Virus record (IMG/VR): IMGVR_UViG_3300047547_000318
Span: 1-29,767 of that record
Length of the DNA: 29,767 nt
Strand: one strand, 5' to 3'
Origin: a virus
A program made the position numbers and the translations under genes. Shown in pieces: positions 1 to 27,125 of the stretch; the stretch's first letter is position 1; every line of letters begins with the position of its first letter. The notes under the pieces are model-generated. The model searched no databases and was not told the origin of the DNA. It was given only the letters and a program-made list of their open reading frames with translations.

Positions 1-127
1 GTAATTATAGCCCAGGCAATAAATGATGGATGGGAGCCAGACTGGAGTAATGATGACCAGTGGAAATATTACCCATGGTTTTATGTAGATGCAAGTGCAG
101 ATAAACCTTCGGGCTCCGGCCTGTCGT
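1..127 (+). repeat. 127-bp perfect direct repeat, copy 1 (upstream part of target 1)
   Basis: Bases 1-127 are identical to 378-504 by base-by-base comparison. The repeat may continue left of the window. Identity stops exactly where adenine-templated differences begin inside the variable repeats. Confidence 0.97.
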
Positions 128-258
128 GCAGCGGCTGCGCTTACGAGTACTCGTGCACGATTGTCGGCTCCCGCCTTTGCTTTAAAACAAGTGAATTGGC
201 TAGGTATGCGGGCACACAATTCATCGATTTGTACAACGACTATTTTTTAATAAAATGA
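1..258 (+). CDS. DGR variable target protein 1 (5' end outside window)
   Basis: This is the C-terminal 85 residues of a diversity-generating retroelement target, read in frame 1 to a TGA at 256-258. It is a paralogue of the next gene: both share the stretch around KYYPWFYVDASADKPSGSG and both end in a pattern of GSRLCF, then RYAG, then LYxDYFLI. The variable repeat (108-180) encodes a Cys/Tyr-rich surface patch here (SCSGCAYEYSCTI). Its codons match the template repeat except where the template has adenine. The stop codon overlaps the start of the second target by 4 nt, implying translational coupling. In known DGRs such targets usually display the variable residues on a C-type-lectin-like fold. 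The fold and ligand of this small protein are unknown, and no signal peptide can be assessed because the N-terminus is missing. Confidence 0.9.
   Translation, partial: VIIAQAINDGWEPDWSNDDQWKYYPWFYVDASADKPSGSGLSCSGCAYEYSCTIVGSRLCFKTSELARYAGTQFIDLYNDYFLIK
108..180 (+). repeat. DGR variable repeat VR1
   Basis: Aligns without gaps to the template repeat at 685-757. I count 15 substitutions, all at template adenines (to G, T or C). The 3' end (GGCTCCCGCCTTTGC) is GC-rich, as expected for the site where mutagenic homing initiates. Confidence 0.95.
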
Positions 259-635
259 ATACCATACAGACATTCGAAGAGGCTGCAGAAAAATTGGGAA
301 TTGATCCTAAAGCTCTGCCAGAGGTTTCTGCACTACCAGAAAAACACCAAAAAGCAATTATTGCGCATTACAAACTGGTAATTATAGCCCAGGCAATAAA
401 TGATGGATGGGAGCCAGACTGGAGTAATGATGACCAGTGGAAATATTACCCATGGTTTTATGTAGATGCAAGTGCAGATAAACCTTCGGGCTCCGGCCTG
501 TCGTACCACGACTACGATAGCGTGCGCTCGCGCACGGATGTCGGCTCCCGCCTTTGCTTCGATAGCAGAGAAGCTGCCAGATATGCCGGTGAGAAATTCA
601 AAGAACTGTACGAGGATTATTTTCTAATAAACTAA
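255..635 (+). CDS. DGR variable target protein 2
   Basis: Complete 126-aa target of the diversity-generating retroelement. Residues 1-40 are a charged helical N-terminus starting MNTIQTFEEAAEKLGIDP. Residues 42-83 are identical to the first target. Residues 78-101 are encoded by the variable repeat (485-557), and residues 102-126 are a conserved tail with RLCF, ARYAG and ELYEDYF. The ATG lies within the stop of the first target (ATGA overlap). No signal peptide, transmembrane span or structural-protein repeat is visible, so it is probably a small soluble protein. The presumed role is to present hypervariable residues for binding. The partner could be a host surface structure if the protein is attached to the virion, or something intracellular; the sequence does not decide. 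Confidence 0.92.
   Translation: MNTIQTFEEAAEKLGIDPKALPEVSALPEKHQKAIIAHYKLVIIAQAINDGWEPDWSNDDQWKYYPWFYVDASADKPSGSGLSYHDYDSVRSRTDVGSRLCFDSREAARYAGEKFKELYEDYFLIN
378..504 (+). repeat. 127-bp perfect direct repeat, copy 2 (inside target 2)
   Basis: Identical to bases 1-127 (offset 377). It covers the constant domain just before the variable codons of target 2, plus the first 20 bases of the variable repeat. The region 3' of the variable repeats is much more diverged between the two genes. Confidence 0.97.
485..557 (+). repeat. DGR variable repeat VR2
   Basis: Aligns without gaps to the template repeat, exactly 200 bp upstream of it. I count 13 substitutions, all at template adenines. Most changes fall on AAC/AAT codons of the template, giving H, S, R, R and D in this copy. 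Confidence 0.95.
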
Positions 636-684
636 AAGGCTTTGGTTGTGCACTGTATGAGTTGGCCCACTGGTTGGTACGGGT

Positions 685-757
685 TTCAGGCTCCAGCCTG
701 TCGTACAACGACTACGATAACGAGAACTCGAACACGAATGTCAGCTCCCACCTATGC
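685..757 (+). repeat. DGR template repeat TR
   Basis: A 73-bp non-coding template lying 49 bp after the second target's stop and 100 bp before the reverse transcriptase start. It holds 21 adenines arranged largely in AAC and AAT triplets, the codon choice that gives the widest amino-acid range under adenine mutagenesis. It matches both VRs at all 52 non-adenine positions. Homology stops abruptly at 684 on the left. On the right it ends at 757, or possibly 760, where AAA in the TR faces TTC or TTT in the VRs. Confidence 0.95.
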
Positions 758-857
758 AAAGAGATTGACAGTGCAGACCCTGCCCACATGGCAAAAAACG
801 ACCTTAAAAACTGGGGCGCTGGTAGCAATAGCGAACGCGACTCTTAAAAGCAAAGGC

Positions 858-1814
858 ATGAAAAGAAAAAACAACCTATACACAAGCATTTGCAGTATTG
901 ATAATCTGATACTGGCAGACAACAACGCCATGAAAGGCAAGGCTAAGCAATATGGTGTAATTCAGCATTTGAAAAATCGTGAACTGAATTTGAAAAATCT
1001 GCAGCAGATGCTGATTGAGAAAACTTACACCACAAGTGCTTATACAACATTTAAAATAAGGGATCCGAAAGAAAGGGAAATATACCAGCTCCCTTATTAC
1101 CCGGATAGAATTACCCACCATGCTGTGATGAATGTATTGGAGCCAGTGTTTGTAAGCAGCTTTATATCCCACACATACAGCTGTATAAAAGGCAAGGGAA
1201 TACATGCTGCATCCAGAGCTTTGCGAATTGCCCTAAGTGATGAGAATGCAACCAGATATTGTTTAAAGCTGGATATACGGAAGTTTTATCCAAGCATTGA
1301 CCATGATGTTCTAAAGGCACTATTGAGGCGAAAAATAAAAGACCAGGATTTACTGTGGTTGCTGGATAACATTATTGACAGTGCACCCGGATTGCCAATA
1401 GGAAACTACCTGAGCCAGTACCTGGCTAATTTCTACCTTACATACTTTGATCACTGGCTGAAAGAGACCAAAAAGGCCACCTACTTTAGGTATGCCGATG
1501 ACATGGTGATTTTGGCAAGAAATAAAGCTGATTTACACCAATTGCTTGCAGACATTAAGCAATACCTGGTAGAGAAGTTGAAGCTTGAAATAAAAGGGAA
1601 TTACCAGATATTTCCAGTAGAGGCCAGAGGTATTGACTTTGTTGGATATGTGTTTTACCACAGCCATACTTTACTGAGAAAACGTATTAAAAAGAAATTC
1701 GCCCGGGCCATGGCAAAAGGCAACAACAGGGCTTCCATGGCTGCATACAACGGATGGGCGAAGCATTGTGACAGCAAAAATTTAATAAAAAAACTGAATA
1801 ATGAAAAACTTTAA
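858..1814 (+). CDS. DGR reverse transcriptase
   Basis: A 318-aa retroelement reverse transcriptase that copies TR RNA into adenine-mutagenised cDNA for replacement of VR sequence. Visible motifs: LDIRKFYPSID with the first catalytic Asp near residue 139; GLPIGNYLSQ at 178-187, the IGxxxSQ signature of DGR-type enzymes; the catalytic YADD at 212-215; and GIDFVGYVFY near 258-267. The length is normal for a stand-alone DGR RT without fused domains. The ATG at 858 (MKRKNN) is preferred: the frame is open upstream from 642, but that extension only reads through the TR and gives a low-complexity Thr/Arg run. The 3' end overlaps the next gene by 14 nt, tying it to the replication operon. No accessory avd gene is visible here; it may lie left of the window. 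Confidence 0.96.
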   Translation: MKRKNNLYTSICSIDNLILADNNAMKGKAKQYGVIQHLKNRELNLKNLQQMLIEKTYTTSAYTTFKIRDPKEREIYQLPYYPDRITHHAVMNVLEPVFVSSFISHTYSCIKGKGIHAASRALRIALSDENATRYCLKLDIRKFYPSIDHDVLKALLRRKIKDQDLLWLLDNIIDSAPGLPIGNYLSQYLANFYLTYFDHWLKETKKATYFRYADDMVILARNKADLHQLLADIKQYLVEKLKLEIKGNYQIFPVEARGIDFVGYVFYHSHTLLRKRIKKKFARAMAKGNNRASMAAYNGWAKHCDSKNLIKKLNNEKL

Positions 1815-2103
1815 AGACTTTGGGATTAAACCCACACAACCGGGATTGGTGGGTGACAAAATAAAAATTGACCGGATATTAAACCGCGAAATTGTGGTGC
1901 ATGATTTTAGAATTGTACCCTCGAAATATGCAGATAAAGGTAATGGCAGATGCCTACACCTAGGAATAATGCTTGGCGACACAAAGCACGTGGTATTTAC
2001 CGGATCCGCCGGGCTGATGGATACTATTGAGCAGGTGCCAAAATCAGACTTCCCGTTTACCACAACCATTGTAAAGGACAATGACCGATTTGAATTTAGC
2101 TAA
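1801..2103 (+). CDS. Putative phage single-stranded DNA-binding (OB-fold-like) protein
   Basis: A 100-aa protein without catalytic motifs. It reads as a small beta-rich protein: alternating hydrophobic strands (KIKIDRIL, EIVVHDFRIV, CLHLGIML, KHVVFTGSAG) and an F-rich C-terminus (FPFTTTIVKDNDRFEFS). This resembles small OB-fold ssDNA-binding proteins of phages, and the position directly before the primase/helicase supports a replication role. The assignment is inferred from context and strand pattern, not from a decisive motif. The ATG at 1801 lies inside the RT gene (14-nt overlap), and the gene is separated from the next start only by its own stop codon. Confidence 0.55.
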   Translation: MKNFKDFGIKPTQPGLVGDKIKIDRILNREIVVHDFRIVPSKYADKGNGRCLHLGIMLGDTKHVVFTGSAGLMDTIEQVPKSDFPFTTTIVKDNDRFEFS

Positions 2104-26195: not shown

Positions 26196-26527
26196 TGAAC
26201 CAGATTGAAGAACAAAAAGCGCAAACTGCAGCTACTGCAATTATGGTGAGGATGAACCGTGTTACAGAACTGTGGGAAATGCTGGACAGGTATGCAGAAA
26301 CCGGAGTGATTGAGGTAAAAACTAATGGACCGGTGCGCAGAAGAATTGATGAAATGAGCCGCGGAGATCTGATTAGGTTTTGTTTTACCATACACCCTAC
26401 CATTACCAAATTAAAAAAAAGGCTTGCAGCTGCAAAAGACGAAGCAAAAAAAGCGGAACTGCAGGCTGAATTAATGATGCGACAGGCAGAGCTGGAAGAA
26501 CTATATAAAATACGCGATGGAGAGTAA
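26195..26527 (+). CDS. Hypothetical coiled-coil protein
   Basis: A 110-aa helical protein. The ATG at 26195 (MNQIEEQKAQTAATAIMVRM) shares a base with the preceding stop and is preferred over an in-frame TTG at 26141 inside the previous gene. Residues about 70-105 form a coiled coil (LKKRLAAAKDEAKKAELQAE; LMMRQAELEELYKI). Function is unknown; it lies in the packaging module. Confidence 0.6.
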   Translation: MNQIEEQKAQTAATAIMVRMNRVTELWEMLDRYAETGVIEVKTNGPVRRRIDEMSRGDLIRFCFTIHPTITKLKKRLAAAKDEAKKAELQAELMMRQAELEELYKIRDGE

Positions 26528-27125
26528 ATTGCTGTTTGACATATCGGCGCTGATCAGCGAGGGTGACAAAAATACAAAATCCGGAAACACCAGTAATAGC
26601 TATGGTTTGCAGCAAACTGATTTTTTTAGGTCAGGAGCATTAGAATCGCTGGAAAACACCCTGCCCCTCCCCCTTAAACAGGATGCTTTTTATACTTATG
26701 TGAGCCGAGGAGAATGGAGCCACTGGGAACTTGTTGCATACCTGCTGCAGCAATATGCTCCCTGCACCATTTGTTTTTGCACCTGGAGTATTAGCGAGCT
26801 GAGTGCAAGAAAGCTCGCTGAATGGCTGGAGAACGGGTTACTTACACAAATTACTGCCCTGGTTGATTACCGAAGTAAAAACCGGCACCCGGCAGCTTAC
26901 CACCTGGCGAGCCAGCACATTGCCAGAATGCGTGTAACAAATTGCCATGCAAAGGTTACGGTGCTGCACAGCTCCACCACCGGATACATTACCATTATAG
27001 GATCCGCGAACTGGACAGAAAACCCCAGAATAGAATGCGGGACCATAATTACCCGGGAGGAGGTTGGTGTGCAGCACACACTTTGGATTGAAGAAACTAT
27101 TGAAAATGGAACTTATGAATTATAG
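26517..27125 (+). CDS. PLD-like domain protein
   Basis: A 202-aa protein with a phospholipase D-type HxK motif, CHAKVTVLHSSTTGYITIIG, followed by GSANWTENPRIECG (H near residue 143). The family's usual reaction is phosphodiester transfer or hydrolysis, acting on phospholipid or on nucleic acid. A single HKD half-motif implies action as a dimer. The N-terminal part (YTYVSRGEWSHWELVAYLLQ; ICFCTWSISELSARKLAEWL) also suits a PLD-like fold. Its place beside terminase genes suggests a DNA-related role, but the substrate cannot be told. It overlaps both neighbours. Confidence 0.75.
   Translation: MESKLLFDISALISEGDKNTKSGNTSNSYGLQQTDFFRSGALESLENTLPLPLKQDAFYTYVSRGEWSHWELVAYLLQQYAPCTICFCTWSISELSARKLAEWLENGLLTQITALVDYRSKNRHPAAYHLASQHIARMRVTNCHAKVTVLHSSTTGYITIIGSANWTENPRIECGTIITREEVGVQHTLWIEETIENGTYEL

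Follow-up and report, generated by a model that had tools for sequence, protein, structure and literature searches.

A Bacteroidota phage contig carries at its start a cassette that is a genuine diversity-generating retroelement (DGR) of a known type, one without the accessory gene avd. In the reading we favor, held at a probability of roughly 80%, the template repeat (TR) of this DGR would be bracketed by an RNA stem (P1), only the core of the template would be renewed in the variable repeats (VRs) of its two target genes, and a small gene coupled to the reverse transcriptase (RT), here called X, is proposed as accessory factor. A broader proposal, to which we give somewhat less than even odds, is that Bacteroidota phages and archaeal viruses share a DGR subfamily in which an RT-coupled small OB-like protein replaces Avd, with a template-closing stem and two-sided marks added in the Bacteroidota members and with small early-gene targets that may not be tail receptor-binding proteins. 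What we add to the known type is X with its linkage to the RT, the stem around the template and the marks on both sides, and earlier mention of X or P1 in the RT-17 or lineage literature is possible.

The window, by which we mean the whole 29,767-base IMG/VR contig, encodes tape measure, head maturation protease and terminase-like genes according to PHROG search. Recomputed from sequence, target 1, target 2, TR and RT follow one another on the plus strand (Table 1), the VRs lying inside protein-coding genes and the TR outside the target genes, close to the RT. Together with the adenine-only pattern described below, the matches of the RT to PF00078 and to the Bordetella phage enzyme (8ub7) and the phage structural genes bear out the preliminary description of a phage-borne DGR with two tandem targets. 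Its limits, 1–1814, took in the RT and targets and left out the coupled gene at 1801–2103, and it overlooked the fixed marks in the flanks, the RNA stem around the TR, the absence of Avd and the status of tandem targets as the norm.

The TR contains 21 adenines among 73 bases, and recomputation over these 73 positions agrees that the other 52 are unchanged in both VRs. With an equal number of substitutions placed at random over the TR, the observed confinement to adenines has a hypergeometric p of 3.7e-11 for VR1 and 2.4e-9 for VR2. In the three-way alignment of VR1, VR2 and TR, all VR differences fall on TR adenines, including the 14 positions at which VR1 and VR2 differ from each other. No third TR/VR copy was found in the window.

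Table 1. Features of the DGR cassette and its template RNA, in window coordinates.
Feature	Position	Strand	Evidence or remarks
Target gene 1, 3' part, 85 codons	1..258	+	ORF open at 5' end, cut by contig start
VR1	108..180	+	15 substitutions vs TR, every one at a TR adenine
Target gene 2, 126 aa, PHROG_11581 (function unknown), no Pfam family	255..635	+	ORF, profile searches
VR2	485..557	+	13 substitutions vs TR, every one at a TR adenine
IMH-like VR2 3' end, GGCTCCCGCCTTTGC, protein GSRLC	543..557	+	Near-invariant VR bases across lineage
P1 5' arm, GGUUG-UGCACUG, upstream of TR	644..655	+	Covariation, 53 loci; host-genome check
TR	685..757	+	Repeat alignment with VR1 and VR2
5' fixed marks, TR A / VR G	688, 695 (688..695)	+	44/44, 50/50 viral; 53/55, 63/64 host-genome
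Mutagenic core of TR, 16 adenines	698..742	+	Alignment with relatives
IMH*-like TR 3' end, fixed marks A743, A750, A754 (VR G, G, T)	743..757	+	85/86, 84/84, 73/73
P1 3' arm, CAGUGCA-GACC, downstream of TR	769..779	+	Covariation
Spacer RNA, Rfam RT-17 (RF03020)	776..854	+	30.1 bits, E 4e-4
Spacer hairpins P2, P3, P4	P2 781-784/790-793; P3 814-819/837-842; P4 825-826/831-832	+	Covariation
DGR RT, 318 aa, ATG start, IGNYLSQ and YADD	858..1814	+	PF00078, PHROG_1423, PDB, motifs
Gene X, 100 aa, PHROG_19665 (function unknown), OB-like prediction	1801..2103	+	Overlaps RT stop by 14 nt; candidate accessory factor

The RT matches PF00078 (3e-18) and PHROG_1423 (7e-121), with the Bordetella phage DGR RT (bRT, 8ub7) as best PDB match (6e-42), and the two motifs named in the preliminary description are present, IGNYLSQ at residues 181–187 and YADD at 212–215. 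The cassette would fit the avd-less lineage 3/CLec3, an assignment made from published descriptions and a motif rather than from a tree: it is avd-less, follows the order target–TR–RT and carries an SRLC motif at the VR end (VGSRLC in the protein). Lineage-3 VRs with SRLC have been assigned to the CLec3 class (PMC7290462, describing Wu et al.). The RT of crAssphage LMMB is placed in lineage 3 (PMC7290462); that of the window is 51% identical to it. A sister group of gut Bacteroidales RTs (L129–L156), mostly 53–62% identical, mostly has a single longer VR and a different coupled gene directly after the RT (MKLNSIEANAHYD...).

Avd was sought through family PF22296, identified by means of a BPP-1 Avd sequence and confirmed against PDB 4dwl. 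No bAvd (PF22296) was found among 84 neighbouring ORFs, beside the RT of window type in 35 virus records (which yielded one occurrence, some 12 kb from the RT) or beside the RT of the window lineage in 37 whole genomes, while the family does adjoin some more distant DGR RTs (e.g. G262 and G300). Although the contig end truncates target 1 in the window, relatives likewise carry no Avd nearby. About a quarter of DGRs reportedly have no accessory-gene homologue (PMC7290462); homing of BPP-1 requires Avd (PMC12875486). The far end of the 32-kb record to which L062 belongs, about 12 kb from the X-type RT, carries a bAvd gene and the apparent end of another DGR target (L244, 366–677), possibly two DGR types on one contig, or host flank.

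Directly after the RT, 120 of 128 related loci carry X, and in 60 of them the two genes share the 14-nt overlap; given this overlap with the RT stop, X is probably translationally coupled to the RT. A full X is missing in the remaining 8 loci, so the gene may be dispensable in some. X was also searched on its own, free of the bias that an RT-based start would bring. This yielded 283 relatives in IMG/VR, and among the best 80 of these 283 an RT lies immediately upstream in 79 and about 350 nt upstream in the remaining contig (L238). Across 395 sampled Bacteroidota genomes, RTs at least 49% identical occur in six, five of them with X; all five genomes with X have a window-type RT upstream on the same contig, from immediately adjacent to about 340 nt away, and X was found in none of the sampled genomes having only more distant RTs. 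In 12 host genomes the number of X genes equals that of DGRs, one each except in Emticicia sp. BO119, where two X genes accompany two such DGRs. X forms one family (103/104), while the gene after it varies, the largest cluster comprising 10/103. Homologues of X also follow the DGR RT in the archaeal viruses ANMV-1 and vir525.

Apart from the PHROG in Table 1, no Pfam or other profile match was obtained for X. Its AlphaFold2 model (pLDDT 92.7) has a beta-beta-beta-alpha-beta-beta topology, from which an OB-like fold is predicted; the top PDB matches in Foldseek include OB-domain proteins (RuvB-like, HIN-200, and RPA), none of them significant (best E 0.11). We propose that X is an accessory factor that takes the place of Avd, where it would probably bind template RNA or single-stranded cDNA. 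X could instead stand outside the DGR mechanism, as a phage DNA-metabolism gene (e.g. SSB-like) merely placed after the RT, which would suit both a predicted topology common in SSBs and the early genes that surround it in that part of the genome. Such a bystander, however, would have to keep its place after the RT in 120/128 loci while the next gene varies freely, to turn up only beside or near window-type RTs among the best 80 of 283 relatives found with X, to match the DGR count in 12 host genomes, and to follow the RT in archaeal viruses as well, and we consider it unlikely, though with a chance worth keeping in mind. Counting against the accessory role, what follows the RT in crAss LMMB and cr55_1, likewise avd-less DGRs, is unrelated to X, and no homology was found between X and post-RT genes of crAss phages. 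The role proposed for X is the most testable of the new claims and could be tested in a reconstituted cassette; associated with avd-less RTs in Bacteroidota phages and in archaeal viruses alike, X is a concrete candidate for the missing factor.

The region from upstream of the TR to the RT start was aligned across 53 loci without regard to structure, and an RNAalifold consensus of this alignment gave P1, P2, P3, and P4. In that same alignment, from which the structure itself was derived, 97.2% of cells in P1–P4 are paired, both sides change in 17 of 22 pairs, and double-change cells number 188 against 52.5 after shuffling, with 0/500 shuffles as high. Sliding the partners lowers pairing to 33–45%. 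P1, an 11-bp stem, encloses the whole TR. Among host-genome loci its inner segment is paired 7/7 in 26 of 40 testable cases, several of the failures arising where the search pattern had matched another motif first. When P1 arms are exchanged between loci the mean is 4.7 (maximum 5.05), compared with the 5.6 of own pairs; the contrast is modest because the arms are alike between loci. Single-sequence duplex energies for P1 in other DGR lineages were uninformative, even for loci of the window lineage.

The position of P1 is the one expected of a 5' boundary signal, and we infer a boundary role for it; a covarying stem around the template suggests a simple hypothesis of how the copied stretch is bounded. 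Downstream, the window spacer scores below the RT-17 gathering cut-off (40.4 bits), which two relatives, L022 and L075, exceed at 43 bits. By eye, the 3' marks seemed well able to pair with the spacer in the window (CAGC-UCCCA with UGGGGCGCUG), but the consensus structure does not contain this pairing.

Fixed differences between template and target emerged when 97 target genes of viral relatives were aligned with their own templates, an analysis that was repeated in host-genome loci. On this comparison, positions 688, 695, 743, 750, and 754 appear as lineage-wide fixed TR/VR differences, unlike products of random mutagenesis; beyond the counts in Table 1, the three 3' marks hold in 95/95, 103/103, and 73/79 VRs of host-genome loci, and the IMH-like VR end thus differs from the TR at fixed sites. 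Within the core (codons 83–95), adenines are retained in roughly 45% of cases overall and are otherwise replaced by G, T, or C. Fifteen of the 16 core adenines of the window are altered in at least one VR, and the core allows 3.1e9 possible protein variants with no stop codon reachable. The earlier figure of 20/21 template adenines altered in at least one VR is correct as a count, but as a measure of mutagenesis it overstates the mutagenised set, since five of the positions are the fixed marks and the live fraction is 15/16.

Random adenine mutation followed by protein selection, with only the G (Gly/Arg) or T variants surviving, might seem to explain the flanks without any further process, given that three of the five marks change an amino acid and that the resulting VR residues Gly81, Gly97, and Arg99 are conserved. 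Marks 688 (TCA to TCG, position 3 of the Ser78 codon) and 754 (CTA to CTT, position 3 of the Leu100 codon) are, however, silent in the target, so protein selection cannot account for their fixation, seen in 44/44 and 73/73 viral VRs and in 53/55 and 73/79 VRs of host-genome loci, and selection as the sole cause is improbable. We prefer a reading in which either transfer leaves out the flanks or the VR allele is re-established in them, such that renewal would be confined to the core; the marks would persist for this reason. The five flank positions would then keep template and target distinct, by IMH/IMH* logic on the 3' side, where marks 743, 750, and 754 correspond to the BPP-1 IMH/IMH* mismatches, and by two marks on the 5' side. 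Comparable to the 3' marks, a G/A pair (TGGGGT vs TGGAAT) is reported in nanoarchaeal DGRs (PMC4372165). No published description of the 5' mark pair was found. In the viral set a single VR, that of target 1 in L030, keeps the template A at mark 743 (Ser for Gly in the Gly97 codon), possibly a fresh full-length transfer.

Recent or ongoing activity had been claimed for the cassette; it is unreadable from this contig alone, but comparison of near-identical relatives speaks for it in the lineage. Most differences between near-identical contigs lie in the VR. Across 5,900 aligned bp, L068 and L076 differ 12 times in the VR, at TR adenines without exception, and once outside it; across 2,167 bp L018 and L019 show nine VR differences, again all at TR adenines, with none in the TR and 11 elsewhere. 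A few near-identical pairs, such as L068/L069, include two to four VR differences off TR adenines. These comparisons support recent homing, directly in the relatives and indirectly in the window, and adenine-only VR differences between near-identical relatives lend indirect support to RT-dependent mutagenic retrohoming. The suggested search of related phages recovered RTs of the same type (421 IMG/VR relatives) and no other copy of the window TR in IMG/VR, even with adenines as wildcards. That absence would agree with a decayed DGR, silent in this phage and with VRs that merely record old homing, but the RT is open with intact motifs, the TR has no reachable stops, and the adenine-only VR differences between near-identical relatives are fresh, and we give this possibility little credence.

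Of the 421 relatives, 80 were examined, and most of the sufficiently complete loci have two, sometimes three, VR genes followed by TR and RT. Among 80 loci from genomes, of which nearly all belong to Bacteroidota (Pedobacter, Flavobacterium, Elizabethkingia, Chitinophagaceae, and others), two VR–TR matches were detected in 44 and three in 10. A tandem of two or three small targets is thus a trait of the lineage and ordinary in it. Bases 1–127 of the window equal 378–504 exactly, with the first mismatch, at 128, coinciding with the first VR difference, which suggests that the contig break lies at a k=127 repeat common to both target genes and that the 5' end of target 1 is absent for this reason; target 1 would then be a 3' fragment. 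Although such a start, as at a k-mer break, could also mean that a single target gene was assembled twice from strain variants, the two genes diverge after the VR, and isolate genomes and other contigs repeatedly show two or three targets in tandem, so an assembly artefact is highly improbable. One cassette in Dysgonomonas sp. PH5-45 (L157, 3950–5263) has two TR-like copies and several VR matches, and its template is possibly duplicated.

The two targets belong to one family and are paralogues, the first being about 150–160 aa at full length in relatives. No Pfam family was matched by either, and a search of IMG/VR with the target protein alone gave one relative, a low return because the scan relies on exact peptide patterns. 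Examined for a C-type lectin fold, the AlphaFold2 target model (pLDDT 83 overall) is confident except in the VR, most of which scores below 50, and no fold match was found in the PDB. Genes neighbouring the DGR encode antirepressors, HNH nucleases, a ParB-like protein, and a single-strand DNA-binding protein. The targets, small and encoded in an early-gene neighbourhood, may thus be something other than tail receptor-binding proteins; for this DGR the usual tail-fibre assumption is unwarranted. Genes of the target family also occur in the Bacteroides phages LoVEphage (L292, 4875–5459) and Versailles (L293, 4866–5447), where their neighbours are genes for DNA modification or for recombination and replication and no DGR lies immediately next to them; a VR-like segment is retained, with GSRL or GFRL at its end. 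Elsewhere in the window, an ORF at 26517–27125 with HCHAKVTVL...GSANWTENPR resembles a phospholipase D-type HxK motif.

In the mechanism that we propose, the TR–spacer transcript would fold so that P1 brackets the template, and the RT-17-type hairpins would probably recruit the RT. The RT would copy the template with errors at adenines, and the cDNA would replace the middle of the VR in either of the two tandem paralogous small genes, with only the core between the marks being renewed.

Among known systems, the lineage 3/CLec3 DGRs of Wu et al. (PMC7290462) share with the window the target–TR–RT order, the lack of avd and SRLC at the VR end, whereas the window lineage differs from published members by its two or three small tandem targets amid early genes and by the coupled X. 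The crAss members of lineage 3 have one target, a tail-collar fibre or tail protein, and a different gene after the RT. The spacer hairpins between TR and RT are also found in Rfam RF03020 (RT-17), a family that begins at window position 776 and is without the TR-enclosing P1 stem of the window lineage.

With the BPP-1 DGR the window has in common the RT family, adenine mutagenesis, IMH/IMH* mismatches, and a structured spacer RNA. The BPP-1 spacer recruits bRT–Avd and contains the adenine that primes at IMH*, while cDNA synthesis is brought to a stop by a motif in the 3' end of avd (PMC12875486). Unlike BPP-1, the window lacks Avd and a clear hairpin downstream of the VR, bears fixed marks on the 5' side as well, and has two small targets. 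When a BPP-1-type GC-rich hairpin with a 4-nt GRNA loop was sought after the VR, stems were barely above shuffled sequence, with none longer than 4 bp in the window.

Tentaclins (PMC10743442) resemble the window in having two VR-bearing targets per cassette, but those targets differ in topology, one being long with a C-lectin domain plus Ig domains, whereas targets of the window lineage are paralogues of about 126–160 aa. The DGR of archaeal virus ANMV-1 (PMC4372165) has a single long target, adtA, in contrast to the two small targets of the window. The figure in PMC4372165 draws an Avd ORF, for which no matching gene was identified in the record, and, as in the window, a homologue of X comes directly after the RT.
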